Of a stretch of 64,000 nt of DNA, positions 969-52,600 are shown piece after piece. The notes under the pieces were generated by a model. It was not told where the DNA came from. It worked only from the letters and a program-made list of their open reading frames with translations, and made no database searches. The stretch's first letter is position 1. The number at the start of each line of letters is the position of its first letter. The position numbers and the translations under genes are program-made. The stretch is from contig NW_024881520.1 in assembly GCF_019059575.1 (NCBI RefSeq), forward strand, positions 868,001 to 932,000. The letters are read 5' to 3'. Source of the DNA: Amphibalanus amphitrite. Taxonomy: Eukaryota > Arthropoda > Thecostraca > Balanomorpha > Balanidae.

Positions 969-972
969 TTAA

Positions 973-2156: not shown

Positions 2157-2189
2157 AACGATGTTTTCAGACCACGCCACCCACCGTTT

Positions 2190-3073: not shown

Positions 3074-3088
3074 TTAACAAAGACAACT

Positions 3089-5450: not shown

Positions 5451-5522
5451 TTTATGCACCTATTTCTGTGTTTTACTTCCCAGAATATCTGAAGACAGTT
5501 TCACAATCATCCCGACCGTTAA

Positions 5523-6022: not shown

Positions 6023-6193
6023 TTAAATACCTACCGGTCAGCTACCTTACTCCCGCGTTGTTGGCGTATGGCTATACATAATTTGATGTACGATGCACAT
6101 TGCGCATTCACATGCTATGAAGTGGTTAAGTGACGGGTGAAATACCTACTGTCACGGTGACTATAAATACCTATTGTTTCATCTCTGTTTTAG

Positions 6194-7608
6194 ACCTGCG
6201 GAGGTACACGATCGAACTCACAGTCACTGATACGGACATCGAGCTCAACAGCTCAAACGTGAGTATTAAAAACGTCAAAAAGGCAAAACAAAAATATGAG
6301 TTTTTTTTGGGGGGGGGCGCTTTACAACGATAATTCAATGCTAATTATAAATCACATTGTAATGCTAATTGCATGATGCCGTATTAGATAAATGTTAGTA
6401 TCTTTTTTCCTGGATGATCTCAAGCGTGATCGATTTGTCTTCCTTGTTCTTGACAGTTCTCAGGGCATGGATTTAAGATAACTATTTGCGTTTTGCAGCT
6501 ATGCCGGCTTCCTCATATTAAGCTTACCTTGGTACCTTTTTAAACTGCACCCTGTTGCGAGTCGTTTTAGCTGCCTTTATTTCTTGGTTTTGACTATTTT
6601 GCAGATCGAGACGAGGCTAGGATTTAACCACTCGATATACAGCCAGGCAGGACCACTTCGTGTAGCTGAATTTGATAACAGGTGAGCTGTCTGACCGTGT
6701 TGTTCCTCTGTGCATCTGGTATCGTCTGTTTCAGCGTGTTCATTGCTGAGTTTTTGTCTGCCCGCAATTATCGCTGATAAGCTCCATTGGCCTCGTGTTT
6801 ACTTCCCGCAGCTGTCTTTATCGAACTACTCCTGGGGGTCTGCTGATCGCTCCCTTTGGCTGTTTCTCCCAGATCTCTGATTGATTTAGTACCAATAGAC
6901 CGCTGACCCTATTGCCCGCTTCCCTTCCTTGCCTGTGCAAATGACTGGGCCGATACCACACTTTCTGACCAGTATGTACCTTTCCCCTGGCGCAGTTCGC
7001 AGGATGCCAGCGCTCCGCGGCGGCTGCTGCTGCTGTTCACGGCTCTCGGCTCGGACGAAACAGCGCTGTACCGCTGGTTTTCCGACGGAGTCAGTCAGGC
7101 CAGGATCGGCGCCGTCGGCGTCAGACCGCTGCAGTTCGCCTTCTCCTCGGAGCCCGAACTGGCCATCACGGTGAGTGTCACTGGTCACTGCGAGGCCATC
7201 ATTGTCTCAAGGACGCGCTATAATGTATTGGAACAGTTGATGAATAATTGGCCATTTACTTTTACTTTGAAGGACAATTCACGGTTTTTACGCTTTTTTC
7301 ATGCGTTTGTTTTCCTATCCCGTCGTCAGTCACTTTGCATGGGCTTTAGTATAATCTTATACGATTGAAGCGGGTGAGTTTCGCTTGAGTGACTATTGTT
7401 TGAATCGTCTTTCGACTCTGTCGGTAGTCACACCTCTAATTTACCTTTCCTACCACTTGCAGAGTCTATCTCTGGACGACCACGGCCGGCCTCAGACGGT
7501 CGGCTCGCGCGCCCAACTCACCTGCACAGTACGCGGCTCAGAAGGTGCAGAGGTGCAATGGTTCAAGGACGGCGCCCGGATCAACGTCACTAGAGCCTCC
7601 CTTCTCAG
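6194..7608 (+). CDS. Receptor exons 1-4 of the visible part (N-terminal region and start of first Ig)
   Basis: Four short exons with good acceptors (TTTTAG, TTTGCAG, GGCGCAG, TTGCAG) and GTGAG or GTGGG donors. Exons 1-3 encode about 105 residues I cannot assign to a domain, including an N-glycosylation-type NSSN and the phrase ALYRWFSDG. Exon 4 (7463-7608) starts an Ig domain with the first Ig cysteine in LTCTV and the tryptophan in VQWFKDG, both hallmarks of the fold. The Ig is completed by exon 5, 28.6 kb downstream. Confidence 0.75.
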
Positions 7609-10600: not shown

Positions 10601-13600
10601 ACGTTGAAAACGGTCACTTTCACGTCCTTTTTGTAATTATTTTTTTTTTTAATTTTGAAATTTAAAAAGTGTTTTGGGCAATTTTTCGCGTTAATTGCGA
10701 AAATCTGACCAAAACATGTATCGCACCATCAATGATCCGATACGCCATCAGAGGCCGCGCCGCGGACAGGTGGGCGCGGCGATACCTAGGCCGCGTGGGG
10801 GTTACACTGGTGTTCGGGAAGGGCTATGTCAACGCGAGGCAGGCCGCGGGGGAACAAATACGGACCGTATTTGTCGGCGCTTAACAGTGCAGCGGTGCGT
10901 TTATGGCGGAGGGAGGGGAAGCGGTGTAGTGTCGGCAAGGCCGCACACAGGAGAGGGCACACGGGCCTCCCCCCATTCGAGTTGGGGCCCCTAATCTTTA
11001 GACCGCCGAAGACCATGTAAAATGAACTGAAATGATGATTAAAAAGACCGGGAGGGCCCATCTCGTTCCCCAGCAGGCCCATACGAGTCCATAAATGCCC
11101 AGTAGCGCAGCCAGGGGTATTGTGGTGAAATTTCAATGGCCCTCAAAAGACCTCAAAGGGCCCACAGATGGGGTCACCGGGTCCTCAGATGGTCTCGAAG
11201 GGCCCTCGGTTAGCGTCAAATGGCCCTCATCTGGTGTCAAAGGGCCCTCAGATGGCCAAACGAAGGGCCACAAGATGGCCTCAAAGGGCCCTCAGATGGG
11301 TTCAAAGGGCTCTCAGCCAACGTTAAACCTACCTCAGAAGACCTTAAAGGGCGTCAAAGGGCCCTAAACCTGCGTCAGAGGGCCCTGAGCTCGCGTCAAA
11401 CGACCCTCCGAAGGCCTTAAAGAGACCTTAGCTTGTGTCAGAGGGCCCCCAGCTGGTGTCAGTGAGCCCTCCTCAGCTGGCGCCAAAAGTCCATCTGAAG
11501 GCCTCAAACGGTCGTCAGCTGGAGTACAACGGTCCTCAGATGCCGTCACGCGGCCCTCAAAAGCCTCAAGGAGCCCTTATAAGGTCTCAAAGGGCCCTCA
11601 TTTGGCCTCAAAAGGCCCTCCGCTAGCGTTAACCGGACTTCAGAAGGCCTTAAAGGGCCCTTATCTGGTGTCAGAGGGCCCCCAGCTAGTGTCAGAGGGC
11701 CCCCCGGCCCTCAGTTGGCGCAAAATGGCCATCAGAAGGCCTCAAACGGTCCGTAACTGGAGTCAAACCGCAACGGTCCTCAGGTGGCGTCAAGCGGCCC
11801 TCAAAAAGCCTCAAAGGCCGCTTAAAAGGCAGCAAAGGGCCCTAATATGACCCCAAAGGGTCCTCTGCTGGCGTCAAACGGACCTCAGAAGGTCTCAAAG
11901 GGCGTCAAAGGGCCCTGAGCTCGTGTCAAATATAAAAGCGCCCTTAGCTGGTGTCAGGAGGCCCCCAGTTGGTGTCAGCGTGCCCTCAGCTGGTGTCAGA
12001 GAGCCCTCAGTTGGCATCTACTGGCCATCAGAAGGCCCCAAACGGTCCTCAGATGGCGTCCAACGGTCCTCAGCTGACGTTAAGAGGCCCTCAAAAAGGC
12101 CTCAAAGACCCCTCGGCTGCTGAAGAGGCCCTTAGCCTCAAAGGAAACTCAAGAGACGTTAAACGGCCCTAAAAAAGGCTTGAAAGGGCCCTCTGCTGGT
12201 GGCAAAGGGCTCGCATATGACATCAATAACAGCTTTGTCAAAAACGGACCTGAGAGACCTTGCCGGTCCCTGGTTATAAGATAGATAGATAGATAGATAT
12301 TTATTCACAAAAGGTCCACTCAAAAGTGTGGCTTTTCACTTCCGCACGTCACAAAATAAGACATGAGTAAACATTCACACGCAGCTACTTAAACAGGGTT
12401 AAAAGGTTAAAATGAACTAAAAGAAGATAAAGAGCACCAGTTACATAGGAACATCTAAAATTATTCAGTTACCGGACGCCGACCGCTCGGACCTCAGGTG
12501 TCTTTTCACGGCTGCCCTGTTCACAGTGCCCTGCGTTCTGCGCACGCTGTTATAGCCCTGCACGGCGCTATAGCACAGCCGATTCCGCCCCGCCTCCGTA
12601 TGTATGCTCGGCAGTGACAAGCTGTCGGCATCTCGAGTGTCGTGCTGATGCAGCCGGCTCGCTGGGGGACCAATGGTTTCAGCAAGCACCGCTGGCACAC
12701 GGTGTGTCACAAGTCGATGTACGGACATAATCCTGTGGTACTGAATAAGCTGCTCAGCAGTGAGCCATCTGACATGACAAATGACGTCAGCAACGCGCTG
12801 ATGTTTGCGTCGCCCGCTCAGCACTCGCGCGGCAAAGTTTACCAGCTTTTGTAGCCGACGCTTCTCCGTCTGACCACATACGCCGAACACCGACAGACAG
12901 TACCGCATCGCTGATATCACCAACGCGTCGATCAGATACTTGATCGTGCCGCGAGGCAGGACATGTTTTGCATTGTTTAAGGCGAGCAGCATTCCTGTGC
13001 ATTTGTGAACGATCAGGCTGACGTGAGACTGAAAAGACAAGTTTCGATCAAAAATGACGCCTAGATTTCGCACCTCTTTGGTAGCTCGAATGGTCGATGC
13101 ATTAAATTTCACAGACACATCAGGAGTAAGAGCAAGTAATTGTCTACTCCCAAATACCATCAGCTCAGTTTTTGCAGCGTTCACTTTCATTCCATGGTGA
13201 CAGAACCAGTCAAACAAACACTGCAGAGCAGTTTCGATCCGACTGACCAGGGCAGGTAGGTCGCGTCTCTTTCCACTAGTCCATATCTGTGTATCATCAG
13301 CAAACTGAACTATGCGCACTGAGTCTGGAACGTGCAGGCACAGGTCATTGGCAAATATGCACCAGAGAACGCAACTCATCGATCCGCCCTGGTAAACGCC
13401 AACCAATTCTCCCTGATAGACGATCGAGATACGGATCCAAGAGCACTATTTGTAAGTTGTACTTGTTGGGTATGTCCTTCCAGATAATGTTTGATCCAAA
13501 AAGTGTCTATTCCGTACAGAGACAGCTTTTCTAATAGCTTATCGTGCGGTACCATATCGAAACACTTTGACAGGTCTACCATAGCCCACAGAGTGATTTC

Positions 13601-16600
13601 ACTTCTGTCCATCGCTCCGAGTATGTCGTCTGTCACCACGTGAAGAGCTGTTTCACACGAATGCTGCCTTCTGTATCCGTGCTGCGCCTCGCTCAGTAGG
13701 TGATGTGACTCCATGTATGATGTGAGCTGAAGTTGGGCCGCTCTCTCGGTCACTTTCATGATGGCCGGTAGCAGCGAGATTGGGCGCGTGCCCGACGGAT
13801 CAGATGGTGCCTGCTTCCCCTTCGGAATTGGTGTGATGATTGCACGTTTCCATGCGCTGGGTACTTGGCCGGTCTCGAGGCTGGCGTTTACAGCATCATG
13901 TATGATGTGACCGAGGCCGGGGAAGAAGTCCTGCATCATCCTGACGCTGATGCCGTCGTCACCGGCGAAGGTAGATGGCTTCATACCCTGTACTATAGTC
14001 CACAGCGTCTCCATGCTGACGGGCTGAATTCTCAGGGCTCCAGACGTAACCCTCGGCAGTCTGATGGGGACCGACTTCGACGGGGCAGGTAAGGTGGAGG
14101 CTAGGTCTCGAGCCACCGACGTGTAGTACTCGTTCAGTGTGTCAGCGGTTATACGGCTGATGCCTGACGAGGACTTCTTGGAACCGATGATGGGCCGGAG
14201 AACTCTCCACATGTTGCCGGGACCGCTCCTGTGCAGTTTTTCCTGCAGGTCTCTCCGACAGTCAGCTCGAATGGCCGCGCGTGACAGCCGATTCAGCTCT
14301 TTGTACTCCTGGTGGCGGCCAGCAGAGAGTGCAGTTCGTCGCTGTGTAAGTAGGTGGCGGGTATCACGGGAGACAGGTGGCGCCCCCTCCGGCCGGAGAA
14401 CGACGCGTCTCTCGGGCGCCGTCAAGTCGAGAAGTGGTTTGAAGATGTTGATGAAGGCGGTCCACTTCTCCTCAGGTCCGGCGGCGGTGTAGACGGACGC
14501 CCAGTTGACGTTCAACAGCTGTCGGTTGAACTGTCCTTTGTCTACGTTCGCTAAACACCTTCGCCGGACGACGGGTCCGGCTCGGACCCTGTCTTCGGTG
14601 AGGCGGAGAGCCAGGCGGGTATAGTCATGTGGCGATCCGTAGTGGCATCTGGTGACGCCGGCTCGAGTGACGAGATCGCTCCGGTTTGTGGCCATAATAT
14701 CCAGGAGACTGCCGGCGGGACGGTAGGTAGGCTCAGTGGTATTACATATCTGCAGTCCGTGCTGACAGAGGAGTGAGCGCAGACGGTTCCCTGGACTGCA
14801 GCAGTTGTTCGCGGTCTTGAGGAGGCAGCAGTTGAAGTCACCACCGATTATCACCGTCAGTCCGGGCTGCGCGGCGATCAGATGCTGCAGCTGTGCCTCC
14901 AGATCGTCCAGATCAGCTGTCAGTTGTTGGCTAAGGGACTCCTGTCTCTTGCAGTAACCTGAGTGGCCCACGTTTACTGAGGGGCCCCTGGTTATTGAAG
15001 GAGTCCCTGGTTACTGGAAGGACCCCTGGTTATCAGAGGGTTCCCTGGTCACCTGGTGGGTCCCTGATCAATTGAAACCTCCCGATCATCTGAGCGCCCC
15101 CTGATTGCCTTGGTCTTGGCGTTGGCGTACAATTTAAAGTCGTCGGCACACTGCGGCCTCCTCTTTCTCAACAAGTCCCTCTATTTCTTCTGCAGCGAGG
15201 GCGATTTCGTCAAAATACTCCTATGTACATCGCGAAGCCTCGTGCGCAGACGCAGTCTTCGGGGCGCTCGCTGCGCCAACTCTTGACGCCAACTGACGGG
15301 CTCCAAATGGAACAGATGGACTCCGAAACGAACGTGGGAATGCCGACACATGATCCCTCCAAATTTACAGAGGAGGAGATGTCCCTGACAGCCCATTTGC
15401 AATAGGGGTCACTTTTACACTATAGACGTATGGGGAATTCGACCTTATCGACATGGTACTACGAGGTCAGCTGATCTGCTTGGCATTTAAATCGTAGTAA
15501 AACGGGTATTTAAACGCTGCGAAACAACTTACGTACAGCGTAGCTCCGATTTGCCGCTCTTTCTTTTTCATCCCTCCGATTTTCTTCCGATCAAGAGAAG
15601 TTTCGTACCGAGAGAAGTTTCGCAGCCACGTCCGATATAACTTACGATAGCACGGATCCCCCCAGCCTTAGAGGATTCCCTTCATGAGCCTTCCGTCGCA
15701 ATAAATGCGCCATCTCCCCCGCTGTCCCTCCCTCGCAGCTGGCACTGGCCAGCACTGCCCTCCGCAGCTGGGGACAGCTTTTGCTACCGTCGGTCGGGAC
15801 CTTCGCCGCTGCAAACGCGCTAATGAGACGGCAAGAGGCGAGGGGAGTGGGACGACCTCCGTGACACACTTCCTATCGCCGCGTGGAAACCCGCTGCCGG
15901 CGGGCTGAGTGTCAGGAGTGTCTGGAGAGTGTCAGTGTATCGTGAGCGGGCCGAATTTATCATCGAGTCTAAATTATCTGGACCGTACCGTATCTGCACG
16001 GTATACAGAGAACCGACGCTGCGGGAAGGGGAGAGGGGCAGTGCTTCAGAACACTGGTTCAGGACACTGCAAAGTGCACGGTGCATAGGTTATCAGACCG
16101 TTATGTGACCCTGGCCTGCAATGGAAAGCGAGAGTCCAGCCAGCGATCGGAAATGAACTTGGGTGCTCACAACTCACAAGAGATCATCGCGGCTCCACTT
16201 ATTCCGTTCGGTTTAGATACTAGGTCACCAATATTTAATTAAACACCACACAACATCGACGATCGGCCAGATCTGTTAAAAAAAAAAAACGCGATTGGCA
16301 TGGACAAACAAGCATTTTTCTTTATAGGTGGGTGTGAAATCTCATTACCTCAACTATGGCATTCTCCCCCTAGTTCCTACCCATCCCTTTTACGCAAATT
16401 CTTTTCAAACTCAGACGTACCTAAACTGGTGTGAAGCATGGACTTCCTTGAATCATGTTACACAACCACTCAGCGACTCATCGAAAACACTCGGATAACG
16501 TATGAAGAATGCCTGGAATCGTTGGTAACCCAACCCGGATCGTGTTTATGACCGTGCACAGCGTACTAAGCCGCGATGGGCCGAGCTTCTGGTGTATTTA

Positions 16601-19600: not shown

Positions 19601-22600
19601 CAGTGGGGGGGGGGGGCAGTCGATCGGCCTCCACGACCGGACCCGACCTCACCCCGCCGCGGCCACACGCGTTGTAGACGGGTCGTGGACGCCGACCCCA
19701 GTAACCTACTGTGTAATGGCTCCGTGAGCAGTGGAGCGAGGAGCTACTATTGGCAGAGCCTGTGCAAAACGATAGCTGAAGCAGACAGATAGGGTAAGGG
19801 CGGGTAAGAGTACGCGGGCGATAAGAGTACGCATCAGCTGTTTTGGTTGCTTAGCAACGCGGGCTTGTCGAGTTCATGAAGTGACATGAAGCCGCCAGTG
19901 CGTGCTTGTCACCAACGGAACGTGGGCGTTGAGCGGCGACGCTGTTGAGTTTAACCCTCGCCCGTAAACGGCGATCTGCCACCTTCGCCCATGCAGGGGG
20001 GGGGGGTTGGTGCGACCCCCCCCCCTTGGCGTTTGAAAACGGAGCGTCGTAGAGCTTAGCGGAAAAGACCAACGGATTGCTCTCGCCGAGATCTCGCGAG
20101 TGGTGGTATATTTTTTGGTCCTAGGTCAACATTTGACCTACTTTTGACCGGTCAAAGGTCAAATTTTCGGAAAAATAGACTTTTTCAAATTTTCCGCGGC
20201 GATTGCGGCAAAACGGTGGGAGATATCGACTTGAAACCTTCACTATCGTGTTCCTTGATCAATTCTCTATCGTTTGGTATGTATTTCGTTTCCCTAGCTC
20301 TAAAAATGGCGCGTTGGGAGCGCCGGAAGTCGGCAAGGTCACAGTCGGCGGCAGAAATTCGAAAAATCAAAATTTAAATTTTTGAAATCTGATTGTATTT
20401 TTGGATTTGGGATGTCCATTTGCTCCCTATAGAAGCTAATATTGCTGCATATTCCCATTGAGGTGACAAGAATTAGCAAAATAGTGGTTCGGGCGCTTTT
20501 CAAAAATAGTACCGGACGCTGTTCCTCTTGTGACGTCATAGCTCCGTGACCTGACCTGACCCGGCCAAGTTTCTTATACCATATGATAGCCAATACTTGC
20601 CCCAACATGCATGGGAAGTTTCATTACGATCCATCAACCGATGTCCGTACCACCGGCAGGAAACCTCGGGCGTTGGCACTCAGTTTGTGAAAATCCGGCC
20701 GGAGGCTGTTCCCTTTGTGACGTCATAACTCCGTGACCTGACACGACCCGGTCAAATTTTTTTTATCAAAAGATGCGCAAGGTTTGCCCCATAAGGTACC
20801 CAAAATTTGGCGGCGCTGCGCGCCGCCGTTTTTGCACTATTTCCGAAAAACCTCAGGGGGGGGGGGGTTGCACCAACCCCCCCCCCCCTACATGGGCGAG
20901 GGTTAAGGCGATGAATATTATTTTCGAGCGTTATGATATTATTATAGTATGGTACAATAATTTTGATACTTGGCAGTTGGGATTAGGTACATTTCCGTGA
21001 TTGTTGTGGGAAATTTGTGAGGTTATTTGGGGAAATACTGTGCAGTGCAATATTATGTTTCCGAAGTTTTGCACAACGTTTCGGGGTTGTTTTGTGCGCG
21101 AATTGCATGTACGGTAAGAGGACGCACTGGTCAGGAGGGTAAGAGTACGCAGAATTATACATTAAATCGAATATACAGAAATATAAAATTATTAATATAT
21201 CGCTCAATGACGTTTGTTTTGTAGGTATATCATCAATGGGGCACTGTGATGCAGATGCGTACCCGAAATTCTTCCAAATACGAGTTATTCTCCCTTTTGA
21301 TTGTGCATTTTTTTTTTTAAGAAACACACGACGTGATTATTTCCTGATTTATAGACTTGAAATATTTATTTTAAGTTTTTCTTTTTGGATACTAGAATTA
21401 ACTTAAATATATATATATAGTTATATAGATATATATAGAAATAAATATATATATATATAGATATATAAATATATAGTTAATATTAACTCTTACTATCAGG
21501 GCCTCGTCTAACATGTTAACTGGGGGGGCCATGCCTCCCCAGTCGAGCGGATTGCCCCCCCAGTGGCCAACATTTGCCCCCCCCAGTCAAAACGTGAACT
21601 TCTCACAAAATTACCTTCTCTGCAATGCGTTTTTGTTAGGAGTCTTATACGGATTTAACGAGAAACGTTAAATTATTTGTTCAAAAACTGTTCATGCTCC
21701 ATGACTACGGGAAAAGCCAGAGTTTTGTGATTTATAGACCTGAGTACTCACTGTGATTCTGTGATTTTGCTACTGTGATTCAAGTAGCAAATTGTCAATT
21801 GGCAGCTGCCAGTGACCCAACTTGTGTTTGTGCCCCGCCCCCCCCCCCTCCCACTCAATCAAACGCCCACGGCCCAACACGGATAAATATGTTTAGCACT
21901 GTCTGGTGGGGCAATGTGAGGGGGTAACACATTAATCTTAACTCTCGCCCGTATTAGTGTTTTTCCAGCCGCGAACGTATAGGGGGGGGGGGGAGGCGTT
22001 CTACCTTGGCCCTTGCCGTTTCGCCCCTGATCGAGCTAGAGCTTCGCGGAGAAAACCACCGTGTTGCCCGTCACGAGAGGAAGCCGATGATGCCTCATTT
22101 TAAGGCCTTAGTCTTCGGTCTAAAGTCGGGAAAATCGCGGGACCTGTTACAACGTGGTAAAGGCTGCTATGTTTTTTCGGGGTGCTGATCACGAATATCA
22201 TTTTAGTTAATTATCACAGATAATGTCTTCATGCATTTAGGCCAGGTCGGGTCAGGTCAGGTCAAGTCAACCAGTAAGGGTTTTGCCGGGTATTCGTAGT
22301 AGGTGGCAACCGCCTCTGGCTCCGACAGCTTCGCAACCCAGCAAACATGCCCACATGGTTCCCATATGGGGCCCACATGGGCCCCCCACCTCTTCCATAT
22401 GGGTCCCACATGGGAATGGCAGTGGGTGACACGTGGGACCCATATGGGTCAGCCCACGTAGGCCCCATATGGGACCCACGCGGCGCCCACATGGGACCCA
22501 TATGGGTAGCCCATCTGTAGCCCATGTCCCACGTGGGCCCATCTGGCCCATGTTCACCCCATATGGGACCCACATGGGATGCCCATCTCCAGCCCATGCA

Positions 22601-31600: not shown

Positions 31601-34600
31601 TATCAAAGCTGACACGCGTTTTAAGAGCTTGAGGACCCTTGGTGCACACTGGAAGTTATAATTGTGTGATATAATAAGAAAATGTCAGGTAAATAATTCC
31701 TTAAAGGTAACAGGCCGTTGTGTCGGTTGAAAGTATAGTTTGTGTGACTAAAAATTCGCGTTGCTATTCTACAGCAGTAAAGTCCACGTAGCGTGCTTTA
31801 ACGTGCGTAATTGCACGTTTTCGGCATTACCCCAGCCAGCCATACTTTCATTTGCAGGCCCATAACTTTTCAACGTGCCGTATAAATTTCTGAAATAGGC
31901 AGCACACTTATGCAAAGACATGCTGAAGATTACGTGACCGAATTGGCCATACAAACGGTAGCATAATGAGTAAGAAATGCAGCTTCAAAGGCGCATGTAG
32001 TACAAGGAACGCGTACCTTGAAAACGCTCTTGGCGCCCTCACAGCCGAAGTATTCCGAATGACGATTCGTAACAAACATGCGATAATTGTAGTCACTTAA
32101 GCTTCAGAGCATCACTGACAGGTGGCATCCATGTCTTACGGTTTTCGAAATATCTCGAATTTCGGCTTTGCCCCAACTCCGGCATTGCCCCAACTTCCCC
32201 TATGTATCCTGAGTTGGTCTGGACTGCACGTGGGCAACTCCACGAGAATATTGGCGCGGGGCAAAATGGAATCATCTTGCTTGTAAATATCTTAACGCTC
32301 ACTATTCAACCATAAGTAGGTATTCTTCACATTTCAAAGTAGGCTACTACACCTTTTGTCAGTTTATTTCGGTACGTGCGCGTCCATTTTAGACCTAGCG
32401 GATTCTTTGTAGACATACCGCAAAGCTATGTATCAGTATAGCATTGCATGTCGGCCGTTTATAGCGGTGATCGGCATTAGAGCATTTAATTTCGGCGCAG
32501 CAGCAAAAGACGCCCGGTTTCGGCGTGTCCGCATTGTATTTCGGCGATGCTGCTGGAGATTGGAGACGGCCGCACGATATTTAGAACAGCAGCAACCAAA
32601 TTCGGCGATATTCATTCAATTTCGGTGGCTATTTGGAAGCAAGCAGAGACTTCTTGCTTACAAAATTAGCTTGTTGGAGCATTGTTATTAAGTCAAACGT
32701 TTTTCAAGGTGTTTACTGTTGCTACTGTCTCATTGTCTGGACTTGAGTGCATGCCTCCGGCCCTCCACCCTCTCCGTTATGGTCGAATATTCCTTTCGCC
32801 ATCGCCAGCGATGAGCATGATTTCATGTTCGTGCTTTCTGTGGGTTAAACAAACATTACAATGTGCCTATTAATTTCTATCAAGGAAGTACAAATAACAT
32901 AAGTGCATAGGCACCTGCTTATAACGAAGCTGGCGGAGAACAAAACCAGGCCGACAGGGTACGCGACTACTGAACTTTGACCCCGCCAATGCGCCAGAGA
33001 CGCCCGTCGCCCGGTGTCGTCGCGCGGTTGTTGAAAGGATGCGCCGAGCGCCGGATGGACAGTCAGATGCTCAGGGAGGGGGGGGGGGGAATACACCTGC
33101 CGCAACTACGAGTCTTGTCCATGGGACGGGTTAAAATGTTGGCGCTAAGCCTCTGGGTCTGGTGGTGTTCGTGGGGGTGGGGTGGGGTGAGGGGAGGCGT
33201 GATGATACGGTTCGGAATGATTAATTTATTTTCGTGTCCTTCTGCACACAGTAGGTAAGGGATGTTTGATATTTCACGCTGGCAGTTGATTAACACGCGC
33301 ACTGCAGCGGGTCTGAGCCGAACACGAACTGCAGGGGGGGGGGTTGAAAACAACCCCCCCTGAGATCTCAAAAACGGCGCAACGTAGCGACAAGCGGTAA
33401 ACGGCGTTGGATAGGTTAAGATGAGATCGACAAGAAATACAAAGATCATTTTTGGGTCAGGTCAAAAACGAGGTCACCAGAGGTCACCGAAGACAAAATG
33501 TTACGATTTTCACAACAGGAATTTCGCGGTAGTTTTTCTTGAATAACTTGTCTTACACACAAGATAGAGGATCGATTCGAACGCCATCGTTCTTAGCTCG
33601 TCAAGGCGCATCGAATGATATATAATATGACCTCGAAAGGTCAAGTTGAAAATTTGACCTCAGGTCAAGGTCATGACCTGACCGAAATAGGTCATGTTGC
33701 ATATCATTCGATCCGCATTGACGAGAAAAACACGATAAACGTCGAACGGAGTCTCTATCTCTACTCAATATCAAGTTATTGAAGAGAAACCGCTGGTGAC
33801 CTCAGGTGACCTAAGATGACCTGGAGATCACCTTCCAAAGGTCATAAGTGATATGTTTCGGTGAAATCACCAACAGGGACCTGTAATACTATGATCCTGA
33901 GCGTATTGAAGTCATAGGATGGCATTCAGAGTAAGTTGAAATTTCTCCCATTGACTTATAATGGGCCGGTCGCAAAAATGACCTGACCTTAGGTCATCGA
34001 TATAAAAATTCCGAGATATACAAGTTGTAGCTCGTGATGACTTTACTATTTCCTGTGGGTTTCAAGATCATATCTCAACAACTGTGGGCTTGGTGGGATT
34101 GCAAACTTCGAAATTTACGTTTCGAGGTAGGGTCACTTGACCTGACCTGGTGACCTGACCATAGGTCACCTGGGTTCAAAATTTTTACTCAAGGTGTGCA
34201 AAAGTCGTGAGAACAGGTATGCAAAATTTGGCGGCGCTACACGCCGCCGTTTTCTCGCAATTTGCGAAAAACCACAGGGGGGGTTGAAAACAACCCCCCC
34301 CTGCAGTGCGCGTGTTAATAGGAGATGATAACAGGAAGTGCAACGATAACCGATTGGTAGGACTTATTCTGGTATGGCTGAGCTAATTGTGTGTTTGATT
34401 GACGAGGTGATGAGTTGCTTTCAAAGTGAAGTAAAATAACAGGTCTTTTGATAAAATGGGTTCATGTCTCGGGCAAAAACTTGGCACACAGTGACAACAG
34501 CACAGACGTGCTTCAATGAAAGAGAATCGGGGCTTGCCTTGAGTCCAACAACGATTGGCGTTTGCCTTGTCGATCGTCGTCCGCCATGTGCGGACAGGAG

Positions 34601-37600: not shown

Positions 37601-40600
37601 TACGAGTGTTTCGCGCACCTACCGCCAGCAGCCTCTAACCGTGTCACCGCCGACGTCCTGGTGATCACCCCCGGCCAGACGACCTGTCCTGGGGTCAGGG
37701 ACGGTAACATCACCTGGCAGGAGACGGCGGTCGGCAGAGAGGACATCCAGCCCTGTCCCGGGGATGATGAGGACATCCAGCTGCCGGGACGGGTCATCAA
37801 GGTGAATCCCGCTGATCTAGTTACCCAGACACAGGTCACACATTTGCTGATTAGGTTAGGGAGTCATACTTTGGGTGGTATTGGGTGATATATGGCAGTG
37901 GATGGTGTTAGCAAAATAGCACCGTCACAAGCACCATTACCTCCCAACACATTCGTTTGACTACATCGTTTCTCTGTCACTCCTGTCTCCGTTGCGGTGT
38001 TACGAGCCCTCCAGTGATGTGTCGGTAACCTCTACGGACAGGTGCCCGCCCGCTTTGCCCGACGGACGTGTGAGATAGCAGCCACCTCTCAGGCGCACTG
38101 GGGACCGCCTGACTTCAGTGACTGCGTCGACCGAGAGCTGTTCGTGCTGCAAAAACAGGCAAGAGATAGCAACCACGCTGATGTTTACTCTACCAGACAC
38201 TGAGCACTCATAACTGAGAATTGAAGTGGATAAGAACGTATATCCATGCCATTATCTCATCAGATTCCATTGTGTTTGATGAGTAGCTGAAAATGGAAAG
38301 CCTGCGCCACTGTGCAGTTTGCAGTAAACTAGTTGCTTTAGAAAGAATAGCAATGGCCTTTACTTTTAGTATGCAATTATCTGTCGAAATGGGACTCATA
38401 AGAGCTCTTAGATCCTTGGCAGCGTCGATATAACATCCCCCTACCGCATATAACACGCTTGGTATGACGCCATCTCCGGGCAGGTGGATCAGCTGATGGC
38501 CGGATATGACGTCACCAGTCCGGAGTCCGTTCTGGCCGATGTGCACGAAGTGCTAAAGCGCCGTGTGGAGGCGGCGCTGGACCGGCAGCCAGCCCGTCTG
38601 CTGGCTTCCGAGGTGGAGAGCTTCCGCAGTGTGCTGGTCGGCATGTCGTCCTACGTGCTGAAGGTGGCGACGGACGAGCAGCTGAAGGAGGTGGAGCAGG
38701 ATTTTATACACACGGTGGCGCCGCTGCTCGGGACGGAAGGAGACGGACAGCTCAGCGATCAGGTTAGCGAGGAGATGGGTCGTGACGAGTTTAGGTGTGA
38801 CAGGGGCCGACCAGAGGTGATAGTGACTAGACGAAAGCTAGATAGGGGGAGAAAGCTCAGTAACTGAGAGAAGGTATGATCTGGGATGAAGAACTGGGTA
38901 AGTGTCGTGCAGCGTGTGGTTTGGCTCGGACAAGGACGGAAAGAGCGATCGGGATTTAGACGGGGGTAGGTGAGGCTGTAGGGAGTAGGGACAAAGCATC
39001 AGCTCACAGATGGTCGCTTTTCGGCCTTGCACACGGCTGACGTGGGACGTATTGGTCTTCTGATTTTGATTTTATTCTTCCTGCTGCTGCTACCGTGGCG
39101 CTGACCTGCGCCATGCTCATCCCCTCTCCCGCCGCTGACCCCCTCCCGTGTGACCCTCCAGCACAAGGCGGAGCTGCTGGCGGCCAACCTGAACTTCCTG
39201 CTGCGCCGAGTGTTTGTTCGAGAGCCGATCGACCCGCACCCTGACGACATGTTCATCACCACCCGCCTGCTGCCCTACCACGGAGACGGCATGTTCGTCG
39301 TCACGCCCTTCCACATGCACAAGTAAGTGGACTTGAGCCACAAAGCTCAGCGAACGTGATGTAATAGAGAAAGAAGTCAGCTACTCTGAACCTCAACACG
39401 ATCAGAACACCAGCGCCACTCTTCTGGTTTTGTAACGGATGGTGATTTGTTGATGCCGACCCTCCTGCAGTGTATCCACTCCAATCGATACCCTTGTACT
39501 GCTGATGATCTACTGAAACCGATACCCCGCTGCACCTATTTCAGCCGTCCGCGCTGGATGCGGTCGGCGGCAGGGATCTCTCTGGGCCCCACGCAGCCGT
39601 GGCGCTCGCACGTGGTGCCGGCCTCAGAGCTCGGTCTGGTGATGGTCGTCCACCGGCACACGCGCGCCCTCTACCCGCACAGCTACATACCCGACGACAA
39701 GTGAGTCGTACCCGACGATAGGTGAGTCGCCGGGCGGCTGAGTCGTGCAGGGTGGAATCCGATGAACATTCGTGTGTATTGTGCAGTGCATAATGTATAT
39801 ATTTTTAGCTTTCTAACCAATGTTTTGTCCAAGAGGTCGGTGTTAAAAGGTAATGAGGTCCAGTCAGGCCAAACCCCCTTTTCCTGTATGCTGTTCCTGA
39901 TGTCCCCTGCAAAGATCATCGCATTTAAATGCTTTTCCGTTACACCATGGAACCCTGTCTGACCCTGTCTGACCTGTCTGACCTCTTGGCTGCCTCCCTG
40001 ACGCATCGTGTCCCCTGTGCCCTAGCGGCGAGGAGCTGGGTCGTTCGGGAGAGCGGTTCCTACTCGATTCTCACATTGTCTCTGTTGGACTGAGCAAACA
40101 GCCGCGTCTACTGGAGAGTCCATTCCCTCCGTCTGTACAGGTGAGGGGCTGCGCCGCCTTGAAGTCGCCAGTCTTAACCCGGCCGGGCCCGGGGGGTAAT
40201 CCCAACCACCGCAGCCCGGGGGGGGCGTTTTTCGCCCCCCCTGTCTAACTCCGTAAATAAGAGAGCTACGGAAACAAAAGCGATACCAAACGAAAGGTCC
40301 TTACGAGACGATTCTAATGCACCTAAAATTTTTGACCTCAGGTCAATTTTCAAGGTCAGAGGTCAAGGTCAAAGGCCAAAACCGGCACATGTGTAGTGAT
40401 CTCAAAGTAAGCCTTCTAGAGGACGGCAGGCTGCATCAAACCGGCAAAATTGGGTGTCAAACGAAAGAAGAGAATCTGAGAATCCTGAAAATGTGCTCTA
40501 AATCAAAGGTCAAGGTCAAGGTCACGCTCAAAATTGACCTCAAACTTAGCACTTTTTCGCACATCTTGCGTGCTAACTTCCAAGATGTTTTGAAATGTTT

Positions 40601-43600
40601 TGAGGCTTATCAGTTCCCTATTTGTGGTTCATCTTACGATACAAGGCTGCTCAAAGGTCAAGGTCACACAAGAGTATCCCTGCTAGAGGCTATTTCACTT
40701 ATTAAGTTAGTAATAATAAATAAGACAATTTTGCCATCCGGAAGCTCTAAATGAAGGCTTAGAGGAAAACAGATGCCAGATTCGTGATCAGCGGGTACAA
40801 ATCCATCATAAACGACCTTTCATGTGTCAAGGTCAACCAGAGGTCATTCGAGGTCACATGAGGTCAACATGAAACTTGACCTTTTCCAAACAAAATATAT
40901 ATCATTCGACGCGGCTTGACAAGGCGAATGCGATGGTACCACTGCCGTAGCTCTAGGACCATTTTGTCGAAGTTATTTGCGAAAAACTAAAACCACATTT
41001 CGGGGTCGTTGACCTGACCTCTGACCTCAGGTCACCAAAACTATTTTTCTATTTTTCTCTAGGTCAAACTCTACACAGCCGTGCTCGTAATTTGTCTTTA
41101 TCTCTAAAACTCTATTTTTAGCAGCTATTTGAAGTTTGCGTCTGTGACGCCGAAGTTTGCCGTGCAGGGGTCTAGAAAAATGGACCTTGTGACGTCATCA
41201 AGGGGGCTAGGTCCAATTTTTTACTTCAGAAGATGTCAAATTGATGGGAGAAAAGGTACTGAAAGTTTCGCCTTCCTATCCCTAAGCGTTCGGGAGTTAT
41301 CGCAAATATTCGCCAGGGGGGGCGAAAAACGCCCCCCCCCCGGGCCCGCGAGGGTTAAGAGGCTCCCCCATTGAGAACCAGTCTATGCCCAGACCATAAA
41401 CCAGAGTCATGATGTGTATGTGTGCCCGTCTGTGTGTGGTGTAATGAAGCTGGTGCAAGCCGGTGTATGCAAGTCAGCTCATTTAATATAATTGGCGTCG
41501 GTACTCAAAGATCTTTTTTAAATGGGCGATAAGAGAAGGCGATGCTCTATGTTTTGTGTAACAACCTAGCGTTTCGAGATTGGTCTTCATAACATAGGTT
41601 AAAATAAAAGCTATATCTTACATAGAAGCAGTATGCCCCATCGTTTGGTTTACCGTTCCTTGCACCTCCTCTTCCCAGATGACACTGAGCCTGGAGCCGC
41701 TCTCAGCGCGCTGGAACGAGTCCAGTCAGCGCCACAGCTGTGCCCAGCTCTCCAGCGGCGGCCGGTGGAGACTGGACGCCTGTCAGCTCAGTCGCAGCAA
41801 CCACAGCGTCAACTGCAGCTGCCAGGGACTGGGAACGTTTGCGCTGGCGCTGGTCACGCAAGAACCCTCTGTGAGTGGGGAACGGGTCTCGGCGAGAAAG
41901 GGAACCGGGAGGGATGGGCGGTCTGGCGAGAGAAAGAACTGGGAGGGATGGGCCCTGACGTAAAACTTGCTTCTGATAGGTTATTGCTACCCCGCAGAGG
42001 GGTGACATTGATGTATTTGGTGTTAGACTTATCAGTCGATCTTATCAATTGAAAACATATGTCAGTGTAGTAAGCAAGCTTATGAAGACATTTCTCGTCA
42101 ACTTCAGCTGTTTTTTTTTTCATAAGGCAGTAAATGGTCTACTGTTGACATTAAAGGATATCGTTGTATTCGTTACACTGGCTATCGAGCCTTCCTCTTC
42201 CATTATATCATGCCTCCGTAGTCAACAATCGTCACCATATCCCCCGTTCTCCCCCTCAGCCGCTGGATTACATGCTGCTCACTCTGCACGTACCGGTGGT
42301 GGTGGGCTGTGTGCTGTCGCTGCTGGTACTCCTGTACACGTCTCTGGCGCTGCTGGTACACTGGTGGCGCCGCCGCTCGGTGCCAGCCGGCCTGCAGCTG
42401 CAGAGCAGCCTGGTGCTCTTCGCTGCGTTCGCGGTTATCCTGGTCTGCGCTGGCGATACGCATAAGGTGAGGGGACGGTAACGCACAATGTGAGCGGGAA
42501 ACACGAGATGAAGAACTGGAGGCACACGAAGTTTGATGGGAACTGATGGCGACACCGAGTTAGGGAGGGCTGCAGTATACTGTGTAGGGGTGACTGCACC
42601 GAATGCAGGATTGACAGCATCGGTTAGGACCTAGAAGTCTGATGGTGACCATACTCGGTTAGGTGCCAATATGTAAGAGCCTGTGGTGCTGGTGACCAGG
42701 TAGGGTGCGCTGTTAAATACAGGGTGACACAAAAAAAGCGGTCATCACCAAAATTCGAATAACTTCGGAAGTTTTATTCAGATCATCACCAAACTTCGGC
42801 CACTTTAGGTCACACCTATGTAGCAGACATCCACCAAGTTTCAAGTCTTCTCTACGAATACTTTTAGTACAGTGTGTGTTTTACGGACGCTCCACAATGT
42901 GCTCCAGGTGAGCGCCCCGGCGCTGCAGGGCGTAGGCACACCTGCATCCGGCGGGCAAAGTTGCCGATGACCCGATAAGAATAACGTTTCAGGGGTAGCA
43001 CACCCCCTGAGTACTGTCTCCAGAGGCCATTGCACTCTCTAAAGTGCACAGCCACCGGGTTATCGACAACTTTGCCCGCCGGATGCAAGTGTGCCTACGC
43101 CCTGCAGCGCCGTGGCGCTCACCTGGAGCACATTGTGGAGCGTCAGTAAAACACACACTGTACTAAAAGTATTCGTAGTGAAGACTTGAAATTTGGTGGA
43201 TGTATGCTACATAGGTGTGACCTTAAGTGGCCGAAGTTTGGTGATGATCTGAATAAAACTTCCGAAGTTATTCGAAATTTGGTGATGACCGTTTTTTTTT
43301 GTGTCACCCTGTATGTGCTATCTTGAGCGGTTTGTTAGGTTAGCTTGGTCAGGACGTGGCTGACTTTTTTGTTTTGTTGGGTTAGGCCCTTTCGGTCCAA
43401 TTAGACCATTTCAGAGCCGGAAGGATGATAGGAATTAGGGGGAGACATTGGTCTGAGCAGGCACCCTAGTGAGTCACCGGGGCTGAGCCCATCCCGAAGG
43501 ACAGGCCGGCCAGCCCCAAGGTACTCACTGCACCCGGCTACGGGGTGCGCTCCCTCGGGAGCAGCGGTGCCGCTCCAAGGGAGCAGCCCGCATGAGATAA

Positions 43601-46600: not shown

Positions 46601-49600
46601 TACATCAACTTCCCGGGAACGGCCTGCGAGGTACTATTCGGCCTCATCTGCCTCCTCACGGTAAGTCAATTGTAGCTGCAAAATAAGTGCGGTGTTATAA
46701 ACGACCTAGTGTTATTATGCCAATTGAAAATCCGTTTGTTTCCGAATAAAGTCGACCGCTGAATCGCAGGGTCGGGCCGGGCCGTAGCAGGCGAAGAAGA
46801 CCAAGCAGAATCAAAAATCCGATGCACTGTATTGGGGAAACGCCTCCAACCGTGCCAACAGAAAAAGCCACAATGCCACACAAAACCGAAAACAGCTGTC
46901 TGTGCGCGGGCGTGGCACAGCTGCTCGGGGTCAAGGCCAATCACCGCGCGCCACATACCAAAGTCGCAGCTAACAGAGCCACAGTCGGCAGCGGCCACAA
47001 TCCGCACAACCCAATCCAACTAATAGATGTCGCTAGCGGTCAATCACTGTACGGTACAGGCGCTAAACGATACGGTACGGTACTGAACAATATTCAACAC
47101 CCTCCCGCCGACTCTTGGCAGAGCCAATGAATAACAGAAACAGAGCCGTGAACAATGCATATGTTCACTACCTACATCAAATAAAGTGCAAACATTTCAT
47201 ACAGACACACCACTGAAACGTATCACGACTTGATATTTAAAATGCCCACCACTGAGGCAGTGCGCGAGGGACCTGCAAGAGGCACTCAGGCAGGACACCC
47301 GGGTGAAGGAAGAGAGGATGGAAGGACTTCAAGGTTATGAAGCCGCTGTACAGACCTCGTTCTCAGACCACCAGGGGTTCTCACCTCAGCAGACCGGACC
47401 AAGCCGTCCCTCCCAGGGAACACGCGAGTAACCACCCCCATATCCCACTTAAGCCGGGGGGTCCCCTCCTCGTGCACCAGAACAGGTGAGCCCACCTCTA
47501 GCTTACCCTGTCCCTTACCGCTCACTGCGGGCGGTAGAGTCCTCAAGTATTCATTCCTCCAGGCAGCCCAAAACTTGGACAGGCGCATCTCACAGACCCG
47601 TGCCCTGTCACTCAACGCCCGCGCAGTCACGGCAGACGGATCCTCGGCCGCCCTGGCCTGAAACCCTACACTGCGCCCAGTCAAAAAATGGTTTGGCGTC
47701 AGAGGTCCCGGACAATCTGGAGTGTCACCCTGAAAGGTGAGTGGTCGCGAGTTAATGCAAGCCTCGACCTCACTCAGCACGGTTTCCAATTCAATGCGCG
47801 TCAGACAGCGCTTTCCCAGTGACTTACGAAGCGCGACCTTGACTGAACGTATCAGACGTTCCCACCAACCCCCCCCCACCACGGGGAGAGGGGGGCGATG
47901 AATTTCCAACAAGGAGAGAGCCGCCCAAAGTACTTGCGAAGCTGAACGTCGGCGCCTTTGAAGGTGGTCGCGTTGTCGGAATAGACAGTGGACGGCACAC
48001 CTCTCCGAGCAGCAAACCTGCGGAACGCCAGCATGAAATGCGGCAGCGACAGCGATTCGGTCAGCTCCAAATGCACGGCACGAGTGACCGCGCAGGTAAA
48101 TAGACAAACGTATAACTTCTTCCGTGGGAAATCAACAGAAAACAGTGGCCCTGCGAAGTCCACGCCAGTGACTGAAAATGGCGGGGCAGGAGACACCCTA
48201 TCCCGCGGCAGAGGGGCGGTCTGCTGCGAACCGGCCCTGGCATCCTGCCAACGGCACGCCAGACAGCCACGAACAACGCGGCGAGCAATGGCTCTGAGCC
48301 CCAGCACCCAAAACTCAGATCTCACAGCAGTCAGCAGGGTGGCTACACCAGCATGATGCATGAGGTGGTGCTGCTCACGAACGAGCAAGTACGACAAGTG
48401 CCCCTTGGGCAAAATAATAGGATGCTTTTCCTCATAAGATAGCTGACTAAACTGGAGTCGCCCTTGAACACGCAGCAGACCATCAGACAAGAAGGGCGAG
48501 AGCCTGTGAAGTGGCGAGCTGGCTGGAACTCTACCACCCATCCTCAGAGCTGTCATCTCAGCATGAAAACTCTCAACCTGTACAAGGCGAAACAGAGCGT
48601 TCCGCGCATCAGTCATCTCAGCACACGTCAGGTCTTGCTCGCTGCAGCGGTTCACACCACGAGCGTTCCGGACAAATCTCTGAACCCAACCCATCACTCG
48701 GGTGGCCTTGTTCAGTGATCCAAATCTGTCGAGGTCTAACAACCTCGTCTGGACAGAAGCACGGTCACTTGGACCATCGGCACGGGGCGGCGCCGCCGCA
48801 CCGACTCCTCCGTCAGGTGGCGGGCTCACCCGCGGATCTGGTGCCCCATCAGCCGCCACTGCGTCGTCAGAACACAGCAACTTCCCCTCTCCGACATCAG
48901 TGGGGGCACATGGTGCAGCAGCATCCTCCGAAAGGACTGTTTGCACTCTCGCGTCACACAGGACGCCGCGGAGGTCACCGACCTCACGCGCCGGCTCACC
49001 AGAAACAGCCACCATCTCTTCTCGGATCAGAAGCTGCGCCGATTCCGAGGCGTCCACCCAGGACGCCGTCCCGTCGCTGACCTGGAGCGGCTGGGCGGCT
49101 ACACGAAGCCAGTCAGGACCAGAGCGCCACAGCCGAGACACGAGCAAATCATCGGCCAACATGCCACGCGTCAGCAGGTCTGCGGGGTTGTCGGATGAGC
49201 TGCAATGACGCCAGCACGCCACAGGCGTCAGAGACTGGATCTGGCGCACTCGGCTGGCCACGAAGGGCTTCCACCTCCGAGGATCACCTGTCAGCCATCC
49301 GAGGGCGATCATCGAGTCAGACCAGCATGTACACAAGGCACCGTCAGGCAAACGCAGAGCCTTTCGCACCAACTCAACCAGCTGACTGGCCATCAGGCAA
49401 GCCATCAGCTCCAGCCGAGGTAACGTCTGCCTCTTCAGAGGAGCCACTCTGGCCTTTGACATCACCATTGACACAGAACTGGACCCATCAGGCAGTGAGA
49501 GGCGAATGTACACCACTGCCCCATAGCCCTTAGGCGACGCGTCAGCGAAAACGTGCAACTCCTTACGTGCATCAGAGGACCAGTCAGGTCCACCGCCAGC

Positions 49601-52600
49601 TGAGTAGCAGCGTGGGATCCGGTGCCGCTGCAGCAGCTGAAGACCGTCCACCCAGCTCCTGAACAACTCAGCATCGCCGCCCCGAAGCGGCTCGTCCCAC
49701 CCAGAACCCTGCTCCCACAGGTCCTGGAAAAGGCATTTAGCGAGCATTGTGAACGGAGTCAGGAACCCGAGAGGGTCAAACAGTCTAGCAATCAGACTAA
49801 GCAGGACACGTTTCGTTGGGACAACATCATCAGGGAGGAGTTGACCTACAAAGGAGAAAGTGTCGTCGTCGGGCCACCAAGTCACACCAAGCACCTTCAC
49901 GCTGTCACTGACTGAGCCACCTTCGAGCTCACCGAAGAGAACAGCAGAGTTGGACGAACACTTTGACAGCTCCATCCCAGCAGCTCCCATGATGGAGCGC
50001 GCTTCCCTGAACATGGCTACAACCTCTGCCTCCGAGTCCGCTCCTGAAAGCAGGTCGTCCATGTAGAAGTTCTCTTTCATCTCCTGCACCACAGGCTCAT
50101 CACCATACTGGGACAGATGGTGTTGAACAGTTGCATTAAGCAAAAAGGGACTGCAAGCAACACCAAACGTCACGCGCTGGAAGCGCATCACCCTAACTCT
50201 GCCCTCACAGAGCCATAAGAACCTGTGCACGTCCTGGTCCTCACGTGCAAGCCTGACTTGCAAAAAAGCCTTGACGATGTCGGCGGAGAAGCCGAATCGC
50301 CATCTCCTGAACCGCAGGAGAACCTCCGGCAGACTGGGAATCAACGCCGGCCCTAGCTCCACGCAGTCATTCAATGACAAACCATTGTAGCCTCGGGCAG
50401 ATGCATCAAAGACAGGGCGCACTTTCATCCCCCTACTAGTCTCTTTCACCACTGGGCGATGTGGCATGTAATAGACTGGGAATTCAGAGCACATCTCCTC
50501 AGTTGGGACCTCACAAATCACACCAGAGGTCTCCATTTCCCTCAAGGCACAATCATATCTCTCCCTCAGCAGGGGGTTCCCATCTATTTTTTTTTTTTTT
50601 TTTTTTTTTTTTTTAGTGGCCCTAACTTACGTTACCGGCCTCGCGAGGAGGGCGGCGACCTAACTACGCCGCGCAAAACAAACCGGCCGTCCTAACTAAG
50701 ACCGGTGGCCACTTTTACAGCAAGACAACATGGGAAAACCCATATCCATGTACTATGCCATGAATATGGGAAAAAACCCATGAATTTACGTTAAGACACA
50801 TAAATGACAGTGAAACTTACCGGTAAATTGATGTTTGTGAAGGGAGGGAAGGAGGAAGTTTGTGAATGGTAAGGTTACGAGAGTTTGATGACAGGAATGG
50901 TTTGAAGAGTGGGTTAGGTTAGGTTAGGTTAGGTTAGGTTAGGTTAGGTTAGGTTAGGTTAGGTTAGGTTAGGTTAGGTTAGGTTAGGTTAGGTTAGGTT
51001 AGGTTAGGTTAGGTTAGGTTAGGTTAGGTTAGGACCCTCAGCCCTGCCAGACAACACCCACCCAAAGACAGTCTCCTGAGCTACCAGGCCATCCGGACTG
51101 CGGAACAGGCCAGCTCTCACCAGATCCCAGTACTGGTCCTGTCCCACCAGGATGTCTACTCGTATCTGCTGGTCCTGGTCGTCTGAGTACGTATCAGCTA
51201 GCGGCAGGTGTGAGAAGGCACTCAGGAGCTGAGCTGGCACAACAGGGCGTCTCAGAGGTGCGCATATCACTGGTACGCGCACTGCCTCAATCCTGTGAAC
51301 AGATGACACAGACTCATTTGCAGCAGCAAGCTGTAACTCGAACTTATCATAAACACCGTCCTGTTTCCCACCACCAAAGGCAGCATATGCCATCTCGACA
51401 GAGCCCTTCCATGTCCCCTTGACCCTTTTCAGTAGCCCCTCGGACACAAAGGAGCGATCAGCCCCAGAATCCATGATCAGTTTAGCAAACACAGGTTTCC
51501 CATCATTCCCAATCACCCGCACAGTAGCAGTGGGAAGCAACACATGATCCCCTCCCGTATGAGAAGACAGAGAGGCAGAGGCTGTGTCAGCGTCACGGGG
51601 CTGCCTCTCAGTGGGTGCCTCAGGTCCAGCCCTACTCTGATCAGAGTCCCGGACACCCTCCCTTCTGAGACAGCACATGGTGTGATGTCTACGACCACAC
51701 TCCTTACATCTAACAGAGCAAGATCTAGCCATGTGGCTAGATGACAGACAGCTAAAACACAGTCTAGCCCCTCTGACCCTCTCAAATCTTTCTTCACGCG
51801 TTAACTTAAGCCAATCTTTGCACTTATCTGATAGGTGAGGTCCCTGACAGAAGCCACAGGTGGTCTCAGATGAGGCCTGCAGAGCAGCAGCTGTAGAACC
51901 AGCAGGTGGCGGCTTCCCAGTGAACTGCCTGAGGCGGCCGGGAGCCCGAGCAGGGCGGCCACCCAGCCGACCACCAGGCTGTCCAGAAGACGATCGGCGG
52001 CCACCCTCAGCAGGAGCAGCAGCAGCAGAGTGATCCACCCGCTCCAGGTGGCAGTAGTTGCCAGAGCGCTCCCTCCTCTGAATCTCCGAGGCAAGGAACT
52101 GGAGGAGGTACTCCAGATCACTCTCTCTTCCCTCCGAACCTCTTGCCCACTCCAGTCGGACCTCTTCAGGGAGCTTAGAGAGCACCAAGGGGGTGAGGAA
52201 TACTCCGAACTTCTCCCCTTCAACACCAAGGCCCTCCAAACTTCTGATGTGGGACATCAGTTCATCCTGCAGACGTTGCAGATCACATTGGTTCAGGCTC
52301 ACATTCAGCAACGCCTCAATGTGAAGAAAGACGAGTCTCTCTGGGCGGCCATACCTCTGACGGAGGATGTCACAGGCCGCCTTGTAGCTTGAGCCAGTGA
52401 GCACCAAGCCACTGATAGCCTTCAAGGCCTCCCCCTTCAGTAGTGACCGAAGGTAAGAAAACTTAGACACGTCAGGAAGTTCAGCTTGATCCACACAAGC
52501 ACAGAATGATTCCCAAAACATAGGCCAGCCCCTCACATCACCATCAAAGGTCGGCAGTGATAACTTGGGGAGCTTCATTGCCTGTGCATGTGAGGACGAG

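Follow-up and report, generated by a model that had tools for sequence, protein, structure and literature searches.

TTAA-bounded elements with unequal G-run/C-run palindromic ends in Amphibalanus amphitrite are probably non-autonomous members of the piggyBac superfamily

We analyzed a 64,000-bp stretch of the barnacle Amphibalanus amphitrite genome (C23:868001-932000, here called the window), and searches were extended to the whole assembly (807,550,619 bases in 2,644 contigs). Element F occupies positions 33290 to 34318 on the plus strand, with 1,021 bp between the TTAA at 33290-33293 and the TTAA at 34315-34318 and a tip repeat that matches at 14 of 14 positions. The left end, which we call the long end, contains the palindrome G10-TTGAAAACAA-C7 at 33334-33360 (plus strand), the G-run of which starts 44 nt from the TTAA start. 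The right or short end contains a related palindrome at 34277-34301 (minus strand), in which the G-run starts only 17 nt from the TTAA start. The additional sequence in the long end (33294-33333, plus strand) consists of the tip repeat CACGCGCACTGCAG, a spacer, and a second tip-like copy that ends in ACTGCA.

Four further copies share this plan. Elements C (19951-20906) and G (40174-41358) lie on the plus strand with TTAA on both sides, the long end on the left and the short end on the right, and their G-run/C-run hairpins are at 19996-20025 and 20856-20888 and at 40218-40241 and 41316-41341, respectively. Element A (969-2158, minus strand) has its short end on the left and its long end on the right, with hairpins at 986-1010 and 2086-2116, and its left flank is TTAA, its right flank GTAA (2155-2158). 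A fifth copy, B (2159-3077, no strand assigned), follows A, with hairpins at 2193-2218 and 3035-3060 and a TTAA at 3074-3077 on the right; its left tip was looked for in the window and not found, and its left border is nominal. When the 2,370 window TTAA pairs lying 100 to 4,000 bp apart were compared, six had tip 14-mers with at most three mismatches, where about 0.1 is expected by an arithmetic estimate assuming equal base frequencies. The six were F (14/14), C and G (11/14 each), pairs at 3145 and 5519 (elements X and Y below), and an AT-rich pair at 21403. The original prediction had placed A, C, F and G at these positions, flanked by TTAA and with a hairpin of G-run, short core and C-run just inside both ends. 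The copies and their hairpins are present as described, also in B, and the TTAA flanks hold for seven of the eight borders, the right flank of A being the exception. The inequality of the ends and the clusters of AGGTCA in the interiors had been missed.

Copies of F throughout the host genome support the assigned borders. Of 6,141 candidates 40 were scored, and all of these were F copies with 98 to 100% identity over the whole query, one of them without the last three bases. When F and the 20 next best copies were inspected, 21 of 21 ran exactly from TTAA to TTAA within flanks that look unrelated, which is what had been anticipated for genomic copies. Moreover, the 18-base string of TTAA plus the F tip occurred 272 times on the forward and 266 times on the reverse strand, and the same pattern read backwards occurred on neither. 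Empty sites were sought by joining the flanks of a copy around one TTAA. Two F copies had an empty counterpart with a single TTAA, L015 versus L048 (100% over 173 bp) and L023 versus window 5850-6026 (95% over 177 bp), in both of which one side matches over only about 20 bases because the insertions lie close to a Y-type element tip. A third pair, L011 versus L036, was weaker (73% over 251 bp), and several other matches across the flanks, in some of which no TTAA stood at the junction, had diverged and were nondecisive. The elements are 0.9 to 1.2 kb long, present in high copy number, homogeneous and noncoding, as is characteristic of MITEs, and a tblastn search of the window and other loci with three piggyBac transposases (E ≤0.01) returned no match inside them.

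To describe the ends, 13 elements were assembled: A, C, F, G, eight from a 200-kb sample, and L022b (L022:1604-2796), which adjoins an F copy. The sample was systematic and nonrandom, a 10-kb stretch at position 300,001 of each of contigs C1 to C21 except C16, and sample and window together make up 264 kb. The end finder covered distances of 15 to 22 and 38 to 56 nt with G- and C-runs of at least 5, and it returned 19 raw pairings. Ten were kept; of the other nine, one was a further F copy (in L022) and eight were discarded as skipping over another element's end or taking a second upstream TTAA (two short/short, four long/long, one 55/17 and one 17/52). Three elements were then added by hand, namely L022b after its right TTAA had been moved, A with its GTAA on the right, and L042a, in which the C-run is below the finder minimum, and the right border of L030a, where the flank is not TTAA, was set by hand.

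Each of the 13 elements had one short end and one long end. In eleven, the G-run started 17 to 18 nt from the TTAA start at the short end and 41 to 46 nt at the long end, a difference of 24 to 28 nt (26 to 28 nt in nine of them). The exceptions were L042a (18/55) and L022b (29/54), the latter carrying in each end a GT run that has expanded at the corresponding position. Consistent with two distance classes, which are based on these elements and on a histogram of the 264 kb, 14 of 40 G-run hairpins lay 17 to 18 nt from TTAAC and another 14 lay 41 to 47 nt from it; the remaining 12 were elsewhere, up to 120 nt, and control words gave 4 to 12 scattered cases. The extra length of the long end is usually accompanied by a repeat of the tip segment, which in 12 elements jointly scored 86 against a null mean of 37 and a null maximum of 55 (0 of 1,000 as high) and was weak in G, L031b and L036a (scores of 2, 0 and 3). 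Genome wide, 16,812 short and 12,424 long ends were counted on the forward strand, against 2 and 19 for the backwards-pattern controls. Reverse-strand counts were larger (43,148 short and 26,566 long), as among the rows listed a single place was counted for several C-run ends, and all of these counts required TTAAC and thus are uninformative on other tips. The runs themselves were variable, with G- and C-run lengths of 5 to 17 across elements and, among the 21 F copies, G-runs of 6 to 15 at the long end and 7 to 12 at the short end. We note that at L035:7121-8301 one TTAA (7121-7124) is common to two adjacent G-hairpin ends, which resembles the tandem arrays reported for CMITE (PMC2872659).

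The original prediction also held that each end of a copy resembles its partner more closely than it resembles the ends of other copies, and permutation of the 13 elements, four of which are kin to one another, confirmed it. The distance between palindrome cores, allowing either strand, was 16 within copies, whereas permutations averaged 64.3 (minimum, 37), and that between tips was 18 against 65.0 (minimum, 35); neither value was reached in 20,000 permutations, and this also held for the 11 nt that precede the G-run. Either both ends have to be bound by one and the same transposase, or sequence is converted from one end to the other. Some exchange from end to end is suggested by the GT run in both ends of L022b and by the F core, as TTGAAAACAA reads on the plus strand at both ends and so forms a direct and not an inverted repeat. 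The same-direction core was seen in all 21 F copies, in a few with small changes.

The interiors are rich in the hexamer AGGTCA and its complement TGACCT, with 13 sites in A, 7 in C, 21 in F and 21 in G where 0.3 to 0.6 are expected. In F the 21 hexamers form five clusters between 33459 and 34168, centered, counting from the start of the TTAA at the long end, at about 183, 372, 528, 698 and 862 bp. In the 264 kb, AGGTCA was the hexamer most enriched in elements (193 versus 23.5 expected from outside), and it was found in 12 of the 13 elements at 7 to 21 sites each, L042a having none. The first cluster was centered 176 to 199 bp from the long-end TTAA start in all 12 elements with clusters. The best cluster period was 169 bp over ten families including X (0 of 1,000 nulls) and 171 bp over five less related families (0 of 2,000 nulls). 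X added almost no power at 170 bp (16.4 versus 16.3; 0.0015 of nulls with X and 0 of 2,000 without), and G and L030a alone gave a periodicity equaled by 0.009 of nulls. The spacing is inexact, with gaps of 141 to 196 bp in most elements and 184 to 214 bp in C, and outliers occur in L036a, with three clusters 90 and 70 bp apart, and in L035b, with one gap of 520 bp.

The periodicity was also apparent when element borders were ignored. Distances between AGGTCA pairs in the 264 kb peaked at 160, 320, 500 and 660 bp (20-bp bins) with troughs at 80, 240 and 400 bp, such that 323 pairs fell at 160 bp and 11 at 80 bp; in wider classes, 548 pairs lay 150 to 184 bp and 21 lay 70 to 104 bp apart. AGGTCA had the largest phased excess of all 2,080 hexamer classes, and 407 of its 602 sites belonged to 24 chains of at least three clusters, some of them outside recognized G-hairpin elements. 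Genome wide, 288,562 same-strand pairs were 156 to 186 bp apart from start to start on the forward strand (backwards control, 3,589), versus 35,051 at 71 to 101 bp (backwards control, 5,115). Nine interiors showed no identity peak at a lag of 169 bp, and thus the interior is not a fresh tandem repeat. AT content was about 0.60 at 25 to 45 bp from cluster centers and about 0.52 near 95 to 110 bp, an uneven and weak profile. Other arrangements of AGGTCA were encountered, including clusters stepping by about 143 bp in what is apparently a tandem array at L040:7172-9909, steps of about 61 bp on contig C1, and other off-phase places that are dense, with steps of 5 to 10 bp. A quantization of element lengths at multiples of 170 bp was suggestive by eye only and was dropped.

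The same genome contains many piggyBac transposase genes. At least 116 matches to PF13843 (DDE_Tnp_1_7, piggyBac transposase), all over the cutoff, were scored from 232 candidates, and 67 of the 116 cover profile positions 5 to 348 or more. One gene lies in an autonomous element, L049:267-2947, which is 2,681 bp long, has a 14/14 tip CCCATTAGTGCCCA inside its TTAAs and encodes a 595-amino-acid protein matching PF13843 (4.3e-76), piggyBat 9c0f (1.7e-27) and piggyBac 6x67 (6.8e-10). Within a G-hairpin element it occupies a TTAA that is found in its empty form in L036 (95% over 325 bp). L049:267-2947 contains two AGGTCA hexamers, and inspection by eye revealed no palindrome at the expected place. 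An autonomous partner that shares the hairpin ends, for which the original prediction had suggested a search, was found neither in the one long F-ended interval that was read nor in ten sampled 451-bp stretches 3′ of other transposase genes. None of those ten stretches contained a G/C-hairpin end and two held only GGGGTCCGCCCC; a recognizable CC-type tip was present in just four, and for the other six the end was therefore not reached or not seen. Three long F-ended intervals occurred among the matches listed (on C16, C77 and C39). The one that was read, C16:990195-997276 (L052, C16:990190-997281), was rejected as a partner, as it is a diverged F copy split by an insert with direct repeats and open reading frames resembling an LTR retrotransposon, which by eye we take to be of the Ty3/gypsy type. 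A tip CCCAGGAACGCCCAAC followed by a palindrome TGGACATTTTTGTCCA upstream of a transposase gene at L051 was likewise dropped as evidence, as no matching 3′ end lay within 1.8 kb and another copy, in inverted orientation, stood just upstream of the gene.

The tips of the G-hairpin elements resemble those of piggyBac in part. The superfamily is characterized by a tip repeat of 12 to 19 bp and a terminal motif CC[C/T]T (PMC2872659). Both ends begin with CCC or CCT in 12 of the 13 elements, F beginning with CAC, and all but five of the genome-wide ends listed start with CCC or CCT. At the fourth position many tips have G (CCCG) and others have T, such that the motif is matched only in part, and the autonomous piggyBac tips examined in this host, which begin with CCCA, depart from it as well. 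By eye and with one gap, the tip CCCTATTAGTGGCA of the G-hairpin element L042:6474-7387 resembles the autonomous tips CCCATTAGTGCC.

The arrangement of the ends can be compared directly with that of piggyBac from Trichoplusia ni, in which a 35-bp left end and a 63-bp right end each contain a palindromic 19-bp repeat that is bound by cysteine-rich domains (PMC7351741). In that plan one end is lengthened by an inserted stretch together with a duplicated segment, and positions 34 to 63 of the right end are almost identical to positions 7 to 35 of the left end. The long-end offset is 27 to 28 bp in piggyBac and 24 to 28 bp here, with a duplicated segment also in most of the barnacle elements, and a substrate with two left ends (LE35/LE35) is inactive in cells with wild-type transposase (PMC7351741). 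The TTAA target, the seamless empty site, the tip repeat and the palindromic repeat at both ends are also common to both. Unlike T. ni piggyBac, the barnacle elements are non-autonomous, their palindrome arms are runs of 5 to 17 G and C, families within one genome differ in core and tip, and the interior carries AGGTCA clusters. The original prediction had known of no described family with this architecture, a view the published piggyBac end plan contradicts, as the layout is the same (PMC7351741). Among the open-access titles and abstracts listed in searches for G/C-hairpin TTAA elements and for AGGTCA phasing in transposons, we found no description of a palindrome built from a G-run and a C-run, nor of the phasing; the end plan itself is already known.

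The elements most probably belong to the piggyBac superfamily as MITE-like, non-autonomous members that are moved in trans by a piggyBac-type transposase encoded elsewhere in the genome. Such a transposase would cut at the tip repeat, excising the element from one TTAA and inserting it into another. By analogy, the G-run/C-run palindrome, which stands where piggyBac has the 19-bp repeat bound by dimeric cysteine-rich domains, may be the binding site of the transposase, and we infer that it is this enzyme that moves the elements. With a palindrome 24 to 28 bp further in and, usually, a second tip-like segment, the long end could accommodate an additional transposase dimer, an arrangement that has been proposed for piggyBac. 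A single binding specificity cannot serve all of the elements, since the palindromes differ between families.

A TTAA target and short tip repeats are equally features of the Kolobok superfamily, which in Xenopus includes abundant non-autonomous T2-MITE families (PMC6004289), and the neighboring element Y fits the published terminal AGGRR motif. Assignment of the G-hairpin elements to Kolobok is nevertheless very unlikely, because Kolobok/T2-MITE tips begin with RR (AG or AGGRR; AG in the ten Xenopus copies listed in PMC6004289), whereas the 13 elements begin with CC or CA (CCC, CCT or CAC), and because duplicated, unequal ends match piggyBac instead. Alternatively, the tips might suffice for transposition and the hairpins might be a separate device, acting for instance through fork stalling or a G-quadruplex. 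Run lengths of 5 to 17 are loose for a protein site, and when four ends were folded as single-stranded DNA, two fell well below their shuffles (z of −5.3 and −4.4) and the others less so (−2.4 and −1.7). We nonetheless consider a separate device improbable, as the two classes of TTAA-hairpin distance and the match of the family-specific core between both ends point to a recognized site where piggyBac has its palindrome.

If the elements are moved by a piggyBac-type transposase as we favor, one genome offers many natural variants of unequal ends, and the puzzle of piggyBac end asymmetry becomes testable by comparison and by simple excision assays; co-variation of palindrome and transposase likewise becomes testable. 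One study, judging by its title, reportedly found piggyBac to be inhibited by asymmetric ends in mammalian cells. The hyperactive piggyBac transposase moreover tolerates equal ends (PMC7351741), and together these reports indicate that unequal ends are not always advantageous. The nearest parallel to the barnacle elements, as far as PMC2872659 describes it, is CMITE of Acropora corals, which likewise comprises TTAA MITEs tied to piggyBac-like transposons, with tandem copies and several families that have different tips and shared internal sequence. CMITE differs in being about 100 bp long with an estimated 1,600 or so copies, and we saw neither G/C palindromes nor unequal ends nor AGGTCA clusters described for it (PMC2872659). 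piggyBat of Myotis lucifugus, also of the piggyBac superfamily, has motif repeats and imperfect palindromes close to one of its ends and differs in being autonomous and in having the palindrome at the left end only (PMC11707139).

The half-site of nuclear receptors is AGGTCA, and the spacing of the clusters resembles a nucleosome repeat, for which 170 bp is a common value. The clusters may mark linkers between phased nucleosomes and may be bound there by a host nuclear-receptor-like protein, and a phased array with clusters in its linkers would keep the element open. We tentatively propose that the interior could be a chromatin cassette in which clusters of half-sites recur at roughly one per nucleosome and are aligned with the transposon ends, such that each insertion would bring a phased array with factor-bound linkers, the ends would be kept open to transposase, and phased half-site pairs would be seeded by hundreds of thousands. 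A duller possibility, which may also account for the pattern, is that all families inherited an ancestral tandem repeat with a unit of about 170 bp and that the clusters are its decayed, functionless trace. The families share homology close to their ends and over some interior segments, and the steps of about 143 bp (L040) and 61 bp (C1) show that AGGTCA-bearing arrays exist in this genome. Against an ancestral repeat, the interiors lack the identity peak at a lag of 169 bp, the hexamer is exact although the families are otherwise largely diverged, and it is AGGTCA that tops the phased excess of all hexamer classes. If the phasing is nucleosomal, the elements are transposons that carry their own chromatin layout, which raises the questions of whether a cut-and-paste element gains from nucleosome positioning and of how a genome deals with about 290,000 phased half-site pairs on each strand.

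Other elements were recognized in the window. Element X (3145-4902) is a 1,758-bp TTAA-bounded element with the tip AATTGGTCTAATGG and inverted ends that are near identical over more than 100 bp. It contains 31 AGGTCA sites in 11 clusters, the spacings of which are roughly mirrored, and a similar chain occurs at L037:1878-3148. Element Y (5519-6026), whose tip motif was considered above, is 508 bp long, TTAA bounded and has the tip AGGGACTATCCCAC; two F copies are inserted in its relatives. An open frame of 1,127 amino acids at 60172-63555 matches DUF7869 (E of 4.3e-06) and by eye has a tandem repeat of about 27 amino acids near its start, and no relative of it was found in viral contigs. A LINE-like reverse transcriptase with an endonuclease domain extends over two frames at 12465-14971, and a BEL/Pao-type retrotransposon with Peptidase_A17, RVT_1, DUF1759 and DUF5641 domains lies at 47286-53214.
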